A stretch of DNA of 64,000 bases from Psychrobacter sp. 5A.1. Its GTDB lineage: Bacteria; Pseudomonadota; Gammaproteobacteria; Pseudomonadales; Moraxellaceae. The translations under genes were made by a program, and so were the position numbers. Shown here piece after piece: positions 40,050-43,170 of this stretch. The notes under the pieces are model-generated. The model saw only the letters and a program-made list of their open reading frames with translations, searched no databases and was not told where the DNA came from. Positions within the stretch are counted from its first letter, which is position 1. Every line of letters begins with the position of its first letter. The stretch lies in assembly GCF_030407455.1 (NCBI RefSeq), contig NZ_JASDDJ010000001.1, positions 62,001 through 126,000 on the forward strand, given 5' to 3'.

Positions 40050-40063
40050 TAGGGTCTGTTGAC
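40050..40063. repeat. Single end of the second repeat family between lptD and surA
   Basis: TAGGGTCTGTTGAC matches the terminus of the 269-bp element at 15444. No partner end is visible nearby. Confidence 0.35.
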
Positions 40064-40136
40064 TATTTTATTATTAAGAGTATTGGATAGAGTTGACCGA
40101 CTACCATCCGATGCAATGACATTGATGAGGAGCATC

Positions 40137-41531
40137 ATGAGATTTTTTTCTTTACGCCAGACCAGCAGAGCGGTATTGCTATCTATGAGTGCTGGCCTTG
40201 CGTTTACGTTAAGTGCCCAAGCGGCTACTGTCAAACCTGCAACAGCACAAGCGTCAACCACTGCTGCGCAAAGCTCCGTTAATCGTTTGACGCCTGCCAC
40301 TAGTACAGACGGTATTATTGCCTTAGTCAATGAAAACGCTATCTTAAAGAGTGAGCTGATTGATGCTATTACGCAAACCCAAGCTCGTGCGAAAGCTGCT
40401 GGAGAGCCTATTGCAAACTCAGCACAATTACAGTCTGAAGTACTGAACGCACTTATTTTGCGTGAATTGCAGCTATCCATGGTGAAACGCACTGGCGTCT
40501 CTCCCGATGAAGCTGATATCAACCAGCGTCTAAGCCAAATTGCTCAATCTGAAGGAGTGAATAGCATCTCAGCATTGCAGCAACGTTTAGATGCAGCACG
40601 ACCTGGTAGTTACGCGACGCTACGTGCTCAGTTGATTGAAGAAGCTGCCATTCAATCGTTACAACAACGCCAAATCACTCGCCGAGTACGTATCAGCGAG
40701 CAAGATATTGATGCGTTTTTGGCATCACCTGAAGCCAAACGCCTGAATCAAAACGAATATCAAACCATTCATGTACGGGTTCCTTATATAGATGACTATA
40801 GCCGTCTGTCAGCCGCTCAGCGTGAAGAGGCATTAACAGTTGCACAGGCACTACGTACGCGCTTGCTTGCACCAAACGTCAATGTCGCTGAAGCCGTTAC
40901 TGCTAGCCAAGGTAGCTATCCTCTCCCGCTACAAGGCGGAGACATGGGCTTTCATAAAGCAGCTTCCTTGCCTACAGAATTGTCGAGTCAGATTACCAAG
41001 CTAGACGTCGGGGCAGTGAGTGACCCTGTGTTGACGCCTGAAGGTATTGATATCATTAAGCTTGCTGATAAAAAATCCAGCAACACGATGCTTATACCAC
41101 AGTGGCGTGCTCGCCATATCTTAGTAAAAGTCGATGACTTACAAACTGATGCGCTGGCTGAACAAAAAATCAACGACCTATACGAGCAACTACGTGGCGG
41201 TGCTGACTTTGCTGGTCTGGCATCGACTTATTCAGACGATCCAGGCTCAGCAGGGCGCGGTGGTGATCTTGATTGGGTCAGTGAAGAAGATATGGTTGGT
41301 CCATTTGAAGCCACGATGAAAAACACAGCGGTCGGTGACTACTCTGCACCATTTAAGACACAGTTTGGTTGGCATATCTTAAAGGTTGACGGTAAGCGTC
41401 AGCAAGATATCAGTGATCAATACCGCCGTAATATGGCGCGTCAAGCATTGTACCAACGCCTAGCACCTCAAGCCAAAGAAGACTGGTTACAAGAGCTACG
41501 TGCAGGTGCTTATATTCAAGTACTTGGCTAA
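40137..41531 (+). CDS. surA: Periplasmic chaperone / peptidyl-prolyl isomerase SurA
   Basis: Escorts unfolded outer-membrane proteins to BamA. 464 aa from the ATG at 40137, chosen because GAGGAG lies just upstream and the protein then starts with a normal signal peptide ('AVLLSMSAGLAFTLSAQAAT'); upstream in-frame starts are rejected. The SurA N-domain has 'DGIIALVNENAILKSELIDA'. The first parvulin domain (about 205-300) is degenerate. The second (about 320-420) is canonical: 'WRARHILVKVDDL', 'GGADFAGLASTYSDDPGSAG', 'FKTQFGWHILKV'. A strong terminator follows. Confidence 0.95.
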   Translation: MRFFSLRQTSRAVLLSMSAGLAFTLSAQAATVKPATAQASTTAAQSSVNRLTPATSTDGIIALVNENAILKSELIDAITQTQARAKAAGEPIANSAQLQSEVLNALILRELQLSMVKRTGVSPDEADINQRLSQIAQSEGVNSISALQQRLDAARPGSYATLRAQLIEEAAIQSLQQRQITRRVRISEQDIDAFLASPEAKRLNQNEYQTIHVRVPYIDDYSRLSAAQREEALTVAQALRTRLLAPNVNVAEAVTASQGSYPLPLQGGDMGFHKAASLPTELSSQITKLDVGAVSDPVLTPEGIDIIKLADKKSSNTMLIPQWRARHILVKVDDLQTDALAEQKINDLYEQLRGGADFAGLASTYSDDPGSAGRGGDLDWVSEEDMVGPFEATMKNTAVGDYSAPFKTQFGWHILKVDGKRQQDISDQYRRNMARQALYQRLAPQAKEDWLQELRAGAYIQVLG

Positions 41532-41600
41532 TGCCTCACCATGAGCTAATAACATGAGTGTTAATATTGATATTCGCGAAAATATTTGACAAATTAGAAT

Positions 41601-41640
41601 AAAAGAAGGGTATATGCATTGGCATATACCCTTCTTTTAT
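41601..41640 (+). terminator. Rho-independent terminator of lptD-surA
   Basis: AAAAGAAGGGTATATGC and GCATATACCCTTCTTTT form a 17-bp perfect stem with a 5-nt loop. It lies 70 bp past the surA stop. Confidence 0.85.
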
Positions 41641-41652
41641 TGGGGCAATCAA

Positions 41653-41740: not shown

Positions 41741-41785
41741 CACACAAAGAAAAGCCCCGAACCTAGGGCGATTGGTTCAGGGCTT
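41741..41785 (-). terminator. Terminator of the candidate small RNA
   Basis: Stem AAGCCCTGAACC / GGTTCGGGGCTT (41774-41785/41752-41763), one mismatch, 10-nt loop, followed on the minus strand by TTCTTTGTG. Confidence 0.7.
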
Positions 41786-41928
41786 CAATACTTCATATTA
41801 TTGTTATTATCTTTCTTCCGTGTTGACTCATCCTAAGTCATTAACAGTATCGTATAAGACAGCGGGCTGACCTGTGCTTGTATTGATACCGTCTCAACAC
41901 TACATCCTTGCGTATCCTTGTGTTGATG
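41745..41928 (-). ncRNA. Candidate RsmY/RsmZ-type CsrA-sequestering small RNA
   Basis: Minus-strand transcript predicted from 41928 to 41745. Hairpin 1 pairs TCAACAC with GTGTTGA (41894-41900/41920-41926) and carries two AAGGA motifs in its loop. Hairpin 2 pairs GACGGUAUC with GAUACUGUU (41885-41893/41843-41851). Hairpin 3 pairs GACU with AGUC (41836-41839/41825-41828) and presents UAGGAUG in the loop. A further GGA follows in an unpaired A-rich stretch. The RNA ends in an AAGCCC...GGGCTT hairpin with a T-rich tail. AGGA in stem-loops, a GacA-type box and a -10 box upstream together indicate the Csr/Rsm RNA class. No open frame is seen. Prediction only. Confidence 0.72.
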
Positions 41929-41933
41929 GCTGT

Positions 41934-41939
41934 ATTATA
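41934..41939 (-). promoter_or_regulatory. -10 box of the candidate small RNA
   Basis: A perfect TATAAT on the minus strand. The expected -35 position (about 41957-41962) reads TATCGG, not TTGACA, which fits an activator-dependent promoter. Confidence 0.6.
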
Positions 41940-41983
41940 GGCCAATGAATTTGGTGCCGATAGCAGCTAAAAACCTTATTTGA

Positions 41984-42001
41984 TGTAAGCATATGCTTAC
42001 G
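41984..42001 (-). promoter_or_regulatory. GacA-type upstream activating sequence
   Basis: The plus strand reads TGTAAGCATATGCTTACG, matching the pseudomonad GacA box TGTAAG-N6-CTTACA except for the last base. Its core is a perfect 16-bp palindrome. It lies 44 bp upstream of the -10 box of the candidate small RNA. Confidence 0.7.
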
Positions 42002-42054: not shown

Positions 42055-43170
42055 CTACTCTTTTCTATGTGCCTCTGACACTTTTTCGCCTTCTTTTTTG
42101 CCTTCCTCGATTTTATGCTCTGTCTCTTGAATGTCTTTTGCTTGGGCAGTAGGCCCATTACCTTCTTGCTTGCTTGTCTCTTCTGGCTCATATTGCAAGG
42201 TAGTCATCACAGGAAAATGATCAGATCCTATGGACGGCATACGCTGGATATCAACCACCGTAAAACAAGCACTATGGAAGATATGATCCAGTGCCCAACG
42301 CAAAAAAGGGTATTTAACATGAAAGGTATTAATAAAATGTCGGCCAATACGAGGATCTAGCAGTCCAGAAATACGCTGAAAACGGCGGGTTGTTTTTGAC
42401 CATGCCACATCATTGAGATCACCTGCCAGTATCGCCGTTTGATCATTTTCCTTTATATGTTTACCAACCATTAATAGCTCGGCATCACGGGTCGTTGATT
42501 TATCGGCCTCAGTTGGGCTAGGAGGCATAGGATGCAAACAATACAGCCAAATGACTCGACCGCCTTGCAAGCGCAACTGAGTATGTATAGAAGGTATATC
42601 ATCGATCATCAAATACTTAATTTCAGGTTCTATAAGCTCAAGCTTAGAATATAGGTGCATACCATATAGATTATCGAGAGGCACTTTTACGGTATAAGGA
42701 TAATCAGATTCGATTTGATGTAATGCCCTTTCCCATTTTTTATCGCTTTCTAACGTAATCAAGATATCAGGCTGTCTTTGCTCGACTAAATCGACCAGTT
42801 TCTGCGTTTCATCATTGGGTGTCAGTACATTTGAAACCATTATTTTTAATTGATGCGTTTGCCCTTCTGGTTTATCTTTTGCTTTTTGAACTTCCTTTTT
42901 CCATAGCTTGGTATACGGCAATATCATTCTCAGCTGAAATGCTAACGTACCGCTCAGTACAGCAAACAATATCCACTGCCCTAACTCCCACTCTGAGAAA
43001 AATACTATCATGCCGACCCAAGCAATGATGCCAAGCACCATTATTTGAATACGTGGAAACTCAACGCCGCGTACCCACCAATTATCGAGAGGTAACCAGC
43101 CCCAGACTGTTACAAATGCAATGAATCCTGCTAGCCACTGTAAGGCGTAATATAATAGTGAGAGATCCAT
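42055..43170 (-). CDS. Membrane-anchored endonuclease/exonuclease/phosphatase family protein
   Basis: 371 aa. Three transmembrane helices at the N-terminus (about residues 5-90) precede an EEP domain: 'LKIMVSNVLTPN' (metal-binding Asn), 'PDILITLESDKKWERAL' (Glu ligand), 'LYCLHPMPPSP' (His), 'AILAGDLNDVAWS' (GDLND), 'LRWALDHIFHS' and 'IGSDHFPVMTTL' (catalytic SDH). The active site looks intact and would face one side of the inner membrane. Substrate (nucleic acid, lipid or phosphoester) is unknown. The C-terminal 35 residues are Glu/Lys-rich. Its stop codon is about 55 bp from the GacA box of the small RNA, which follows on the same strand. Confidence 0.87.
   Translation of the reverse strand: MDLSLLYYALQWLAGFIAFVTVWGWLPLDNWWVRGVEFPRIQIMVLGIIAWVGMIVFFSEWELGQWILFAVLSGTLAFQLRMILPYTKLWKKEVQKAKDKPEGQTHQLKIMVSNVLTPNDETQKLVDLVEQRQPDILITLESDKKWERALHQIESDYPYTVKVPLDNLYGMHLYSKLELIEPEIKYLMIDDIPSIHTQLRLQGGRVIWLYCLHPMPPSPTEADKSTTRDAELLMVGKHIKENDQTAILAGDLNDVAWSKTTRRFQRISGLLDPRIGRHFINTFHVKYPFLRWALDHIFHSACFTVVDIQRMPSIGSDHFPVMTTLQYEPEETSKQEGNGPTAQAKDIQETEHKIEEGKKEGEKVSEAHRKE

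Follow-up and report, generated by a model that had tools for sequence, protein, structure and literature searches.

In Gac/Rsm systems, GacA activates promoters that lack a -35 element, and the RNAs made from them sequester CsrA with loop-borne GGA motifs and free its target mRNAs. Psychrobacter, a genus of often cold-adapted bacteria, is related to Acinetobacter and Moraxella. The 64,000 nucleotides of Psychrobacter sp. 5A.1 analysed here (contig NZ_JASDDJ010000001.1, positions 62,001 to 126,000) are called the window, and the RNA predicted beside surA in it the window RNA.

The upstream activating sequences (UAS) of rsmY and rsmZ, given as TGTAAGCATTCTCTTACA and TGTAAGCATTCGCTTACT in an excerpt of PMC4353343, are close to the box at this locus. 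Rsm RNAs of Pseudomonas brassicacearum carry 6, 6, 7 and 10 GGA (excerpt of PMC7911923), against only 4 in the window RNA. Nearer to Psychrobacter, excerpted sources give Rsm RNAs predicted for Acinetobacter ADP1 (PMC5568370), bracketed entries for A. baumannii, which we read as predicted, in a table citing Kulkarni 2006 (PMC7366521), and A. johnsonii candidates obtained with Rfam covariance models (PMC4993456). These predictions resemble the present case in belonging to the same family, Moraxellaceae, and in the excerpts GacS/GacA and CsrA are listed with them. The preliminary description had called the occurrence in a Moraxellaceae-type genome notable; it is less so, because Acinetobacter Rsm RNAs had been predicted earlier (excerpts of PMC5568370 and PMC7366521). 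No description of a Gac/Rsm RNA of Psychrobacter stood among the open-access literature matches listed, as excerpted, and in the excerpt of PMC9927453 the genus appears in a reference only.

We read the window RNA gene as a putative GacA-activated small RNA gene whose product would titrate CsrA, with a probability of about 0.92. The architecture of the locus, its conservation, the two-sided changes of paired positions, the synteny and the presence of the regulator genes were established directly.

Architecture of the locus

The features of the locus are as follows (window coordinates).

42055..43170, minus strand: upstream gene of the endonuclease/exonuclease/phosphatase family (PF03372); synteny marker
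41984..42001, minus strand: GacA-box palindrome CGTAAGCATATGCTTACA, agreeing with TGTAAG-N6-CTTACA at 11 of its 12 specified positions
41940..41983, minus strand: linker of 44 nt from box to -10, majority consensus block AAATA..GTCTTTAGC.TCTAG
41934..41939, minus strand: -10 element TATAAT, without recognisable -35
41746..41928, minus strand: predicted small RNA of about 183 nt, ends placed from the -10 and the terminator
41894..41926, minus strand: hairpin 1, stem of seven pairs (TCAACAC/GTGTTGA), two AAGGA in the loop
41917-41915 and 41907-41905, minus strand: GGA triplets in the hairpin 1 loop
41843..41893, minus strand: hairpin 2, nine outer pairs including two G-U, no GGA, loop AGGTCAGCCCGCT
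41824..41840, minus strand: hairpin 3 around GACTTAGGATGAGTC, loop GGA at 41833-41831; pattern present in 30/31 aligned sequences
41817..41819, minus strand: fourth GGA (CACGGAAG), not part of any hairpin in the consensus fold
41746..41784, minus strand: intrinsic terminator hairpin and T-run (helix 5 of the consensus; terminator scan)
40059..41531, plus strand: surA, downstream convergent gene; synteny marker

Most of the arrangement given in the preliminary description was borne out. The 44 nt between box and TATAAT are exact, and the promoter scan found no two-hexamer promoter at this -10, in line with the missing -35; the fold placed two AGGA in the hairpin 1 loop and one in hairpin 3, as described, and confirmed the nine of nine pairs of stem 2 with their two G-U pairs, and the scan returned a terminator-like hairpin with a T-run. 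Two points were amended. The near-perfect match of the box stands at 11/12 specified positions, while the letters quoted for it, TGTAAG-N6-CTTAC, are those of the plus and not of the minus strand (the site is palindromic and reads TGTAAGCATATGCTTACG on the plus strand). The fourth GGA, described as unpaired, does lie outside the consensus hairpins, but some of it pairs in the MFE structure of the single sequence.

In the window, only the box at 42001-41984 comes within one mismatch of TGTAAG-N6-CTTACA (0.20 sites expected). By itself it is weak evidence, since 20 of 100 shuffled windows hold at least one such site. Its place ahead of the promoter is fixed: the distance to the -10 was 44 nt at all 36 loci compared (31 of the same genus and five of the related genus g28). 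Conservation stayed below 90% at every one of the 30 positions that precede the box at these loci, and the linker itself is variable. The palindrome is kept across the genus in the alignment of loci read; at the loci of G014, G021 and G030 it matched 10-11 of 12 positions, with a spacing to the -10 within 1 nt of 44.

The stretch 41931-41746 folds at -50.7 kcal/mol (z -3.07; 0/200 shuffles as low). GGA triplets show no enrichment in plain number (4 vs 3.5 expected from dinucleotide shuffles, P 0.49), and the longer motif ANGGAT shows a mild one (2 vs 0.29 expected, P 0.03); the significance of the GGA motifs therefore lies in their conservation and placement, mostly in hairpin loops, and not in their number. 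A reading of the RNA as a coding ORF was rejected, the longest closed ORF being 4-26 aa across 31 sequences. Between surA and the small RNA, a twenty-pair inverted repeat occupies 41598-41641 and is probably the terminator of surA.

Comparison with described Rsm and Csr RNAs

A check against the RsmX/Y/Z and CsrB models of Rfam, proposed in the preliminary description, gave no match to the locus: the window RNA was matched by none of the Csr/Rsm families, at the gathering threshold or at E values up to 10. RsmY (RF00195) had no match in the genome of Psychrobacter sp. 5A.1, so that membership by the gathering threshold is not given, and PrrB_RsmZ, RsmX, CsrB and CsrC stayed below theirs in a search with the whole Rfam library, run without a positive control for these four. 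Weak matches to PK-repBA and AgvB at the locus were far below the cut-offs of these families and were discarded, as were the remaining low-scoring matches, all below cut-off and none to a Csr/Rsm family.

Among the 115 genomes of the order, the RsmY model matched 24 at E <= 0.001 and exceeded its cut-off in three, all of family f21; of 14 named controls, two were matched below the cut-off and none above it. Because below-cut-off matches were so frequent, controls included, the three genomes over the cut-off were the only ones used for comparison. In their RsmY genes (n=3) the box ends 57, 61 and 59 nt before the start of the model, a gap of 57-61 nt as compared with 55 nt to the predicted start of the window RNA. 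Like the window RNA, RsmY is short, is built of GGA-bearing stem-loops and has a terminator; it differs in sequence and in its 7-8 GGA against 4. RsmX, RsmZ (PrrB_RsmZ), CsrB and CsrC are alike in having several RNAs per genome and GGA loops, through which CsrA/RsmA would be titrated in the present case as well.

The published Acinetobacter RNAs were set beside the window RNA by description. Our covariance model of the window RNA (R1; matches taken at E <= 0.001) matched a single genome, G103, of genus g36, which we guess to be Acinetobacter, and this match (L214) was rejected, being terminator-like only, without box or GGA array. In g36, 5 of 30 exact-box loci had at least 7 GGA on one strand within 40-260 nt downstream.

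The label RsmY/RsmZ-like used in the preliminary description thus holds for the build and the probable function, but not for sequence membership in the Rfam families. Assignment of the window RNA to the Gac/Rsm type as a class of function, as distinct from sequence membership, is supported.

Conservation and covariation

The single-sequence statistics are modest; the comparison across genomes is decisive. A DNA match to the stretch was found in 34 of 57 genomes searched (own genome included), all within the 36 genomes of the same genus. Of these, 31 form alignment A1; G014, G021 and G030 gave partial matches and were left out. The locus of G014 (L068, minus strand) carries a shortened RNA with hairpin 1, one more GGA and the terminator, in which hairpin 2 is not recognisable.

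Conservation of the four GGA in A1 is 31, 30, 31 and 30 out of 31 sequences, respectively, against a mean conservation of 0.68 for all triplets of the reference (n=171), 28 of which reach 0.96. The consensus structure has 37 pairs, with 97.0% of cells paired and two-sided changes at 18/37 pairs; none of 500 shuffles, which ignore relatedness (28 distinct rows), reached the pairing or the two-sided values, and sliding the pairing partners lowered pairing to 31-45%. As the consensus structure was derived from A1 itself and the shuffles ignore relatedness, the two-sided changes weigh most. Of the checks proposed for relatives, the one on conservation came out in favour of the preliminary description, palindrome and AGGA loops alike being kept within the genus (GGA in 30-31/31); the covariation that it had asked for was seen across Psychrobacter.

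R1 matched 96 of 249 genomes of the family: 90 of the 91 of the own genus (own genome included), five of six of g28, and the g36 genome dealt with above. R1 also recovered G005 and G034, which the DNA search had not matched; no R1 match was obtained in G164 (own genus) and G077 (g28). Among named genomes, a degenerate-pattern scan returned 58 loci, 57 in Psychrobacter and one in Bacillus. The 58 are not independent of the other loci, since many probably repeat the same species; the Bacillus locus (L174), with neither box nor neighbour match, is read as chance (about 2 chance matches expected, by a rough estimate). The window RNA gene is a conserved, genus-wide candidate gene for a non-coding small RNA with a conserved secondary structure and an intrinsic terminator, very probably of a known regulator type and not listed in Rfam.

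Hairpin 2 gives room for a different function, in which a Gac-activated RNA would act mainly by base-pairing with mRNAs through the hairpin 2 loop, perhaps with Hfq, and the GGA sites would serve just stability or CsrA-mediated turnover. It carries no GGA, two-sided change affects 9 of the 12 pairs that make up its helices 2 and 3, and its loop GGTCAGCCC is exact in 25/31 A1 sequences; yet the loop is inexact in the other 6/31 and was not seen in the five g28 relatives, and the GGA sites are kept better, at 30-31/31. We consider base-pairing as the main function very unlikely.

Regulator genes

CsrA, a GacA-like and a GacS-like protein are all encoded in the genome, CsrA alone scoring above its cut-off; the search for gacA and csrA that the preliminary description had called for was in this sense successful. 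The csrA gene (G000:C1:19230; E 4.3e-25) lies on the contig of the window, outside the window, beside an ORF that is presumably lysC. By our own count, 52 of CsrA residues 1-60 are identical to those of a solved CsrA. The protein (L001:1501-1746, G000:C1) is 81 aa long, and its tail past residue 60 is partly acidic; the solved CsrA has 61 aa and lacks this tail.

A LuxR-type DNA-binding domain was detected in two proteins of the genome (E <= 0.001), on contigs C24 and C73. The best NCBIfam match of the C24 regulator is the UvrY/SirA/GacA model (240 bits vs a cut-off of 280); the C24 protein was matched in 91/91 genomes of the genus at 81-100% identity, and at E <= 1e-30 in 245/249 genomes of the family. 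This gacA candidate (G000:C24) is followed by a sensor kinase-like ORF (L074:1729-3168), which is not the GacS candidate; gacA followed by a sensor kinase-like gene is reported for A. baumannii in an excerpt of PMC5295007. The GacS candidate is a hybrid kinase of 1181 aa with HisKA, HATPase_c, receiver and Hpt domains, and is best matched by BarA (523 bits vs a cut-off of 890). The BarA/GacS sensor domain of Moraxellaceae is reported to form a branch of its own (excerpt of PMC8639471), and the sub-threshold score may fit this. The names GacA and GacS are accordingly candidate assignments, from domains and from best matches that score below the curated cut-offs.

With two LuxR-type proteins encoded, the palindrome might be bound by another regulator, for example that on C73, and the RNA would then soak up CsrA in response to some other signal. 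The best match of the C73 regulator is the MadR model (128 bits, below cut-off), with the GacA model at 85 bits; the GacA model is the best match for C24 only, at 240 bits, and the box is close to the UAS of rsmY and rsmZ (excerpt of PMC4353343), both of which make a regulator other than GacA hard to credit.

Sister RNAs and genomic context

The exact box occurs twice more in the genome, on contigs C64 and C66; the reversed control pattern does not occur in the genome. An RNA can be predicted at each (ends guessed).

L062:2742-3018, G000:C64, minus strand: sister RNA of about 206 nt, 7 GGA, exact box TGTAAGCATATGCTTACA
L063:3009-3358, G000:C66, plus strand: sister RNA of about 278 nt, 8 GGA, exact box TGTAAGCATATGCTTACA

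Both start 53-54 nt past the box and fold strongly, with most GGA unpaired. Plain GGA enrichment gave P 0.20 (C64) and P 0.03 (C66), and ANGGAT enrichment P 0.0005 and P 0.002, respectively. They share the N6 core of the box with the window RNA, their own boxes being perfect; they differ from it in having no detectable similarity (one own-genome match), another linker consensus, and 7 and 8 GGA against 4. No Rfam family reached its gathering threshold at the sister loci L062-L066. The -10 of the sister RNAs, located with a simple finder, stands at 41 to 46 nt without a single fixed value, so that the 44-nt rule is confined to the window RNA.

Elsewhere in the genus, too, relatives of C64 and C66 sit at boxes; 68 boxes, part of them also inspected by eye, were sorted into 38 C66-like, 22 C64-like and 8 unsorted. 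At least one exact box is present in 89/91 genomes of the genus, as compared with 3/91 for the reversed control. In the own genome there are three additional sites with one mismatch, and a two-mismatch search was at chance level (92 sites vs 94 of the reversed control). That one palindrome is repeatedly followed by GGA-rich RNAs unlike each other in sequence argues strongly for box and RNA forming a unit, and the window RNA is apparently one of three such RNAs in this genome. At L064, L065 and L066 (G034, G023 and G005), two to three boxes lie within about 1-1.5 kb, each followed by a GGA-containing stretch, an apparent tandem amplification of Gac small RNA genes.

Synteny was assessed at 91 of 94 loci with the RNA and a strict box; L144 (cut at the locus end), L178 (changed box) and L174 (chance) were taken out. 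The convergent surA is downstream at 74/91 loci (of the remainder, the part checked consists of loci that end earlier), and the phosphatase-family gene upstream, on the same strand, at 88/91. An origin of the RNA in the mRNA of this gene, whose 3' end it would then form as a 3'-UTR element or derived RNA instead of being a gene of its own, would agree with this synteny, with the end of the gene 53 nt ahead of the box and with the failure of the scan to find a minus-strand terminator between the two, but is most improbable in view of the box and -10 at a fixed 44 nt, which point to an own promoter, of L212 and L213, where box and RNA are kept and the upstream gene is unmatched in the stretch covered, and of the same box before two other GGA-rich RNAs that are unmatched by the window RNA.

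Proposed mechanism

For the preferred reading, that of a GacA-activated RNA titrating CsrA, we infer GacA binding, transcription, CsrA binding and titration by analogy with the described systems. A signal received by the BarA/GacS-like hybrid kinase would lead to binding of phosphorylated GacA at the palindrome, and bound GacA would recruit RNA polymerase to the promoter with its -10 and without a -35. In the transcript, of about 183 nt, hairpin loops would offer GGA in imitation of the site that CsrA recognises on its target mRNAs; dimers of CsrA would bind the RNA and leave these mRNAs, whose translational control would be lifted. In this the window RNA would act together with the box-linked RNAs of C64 and C66.

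The GGA-free hairpin 2 with its conserved loop, together with the distinct linker block, suggests a further function or input. The linker block (41940-41983, minus strand) is conserved and unlike the linker consensus of the two sister RNAs; it is possibly the site of a second factor. Taken furthest, the RNA would be dual-purpose in Psychrobacter and its near relatives, hairpins 1 and 3 titrating CsrA and hairpin 2 pairing with a target or binding a second protein, with a promoter that takes extra input and three RNAs that report different signals to one CsrA; we put this forward as a rather unlikely extension.

Implications

With the window RNA, the Gac/Csr pathway gains a candidate RNA output for Psychrobacter. 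Three candidate genes and exact boxes come with it, as does a structure backed by two-sided changes that could become an Rfam family. The pathway is also made testable in this genus, by a 44-nt promoter geometry common to two genera, and the separate Moraxellaceae branch of the GacS sensor domain (excerpt of PMC8639471) adds to this testability.
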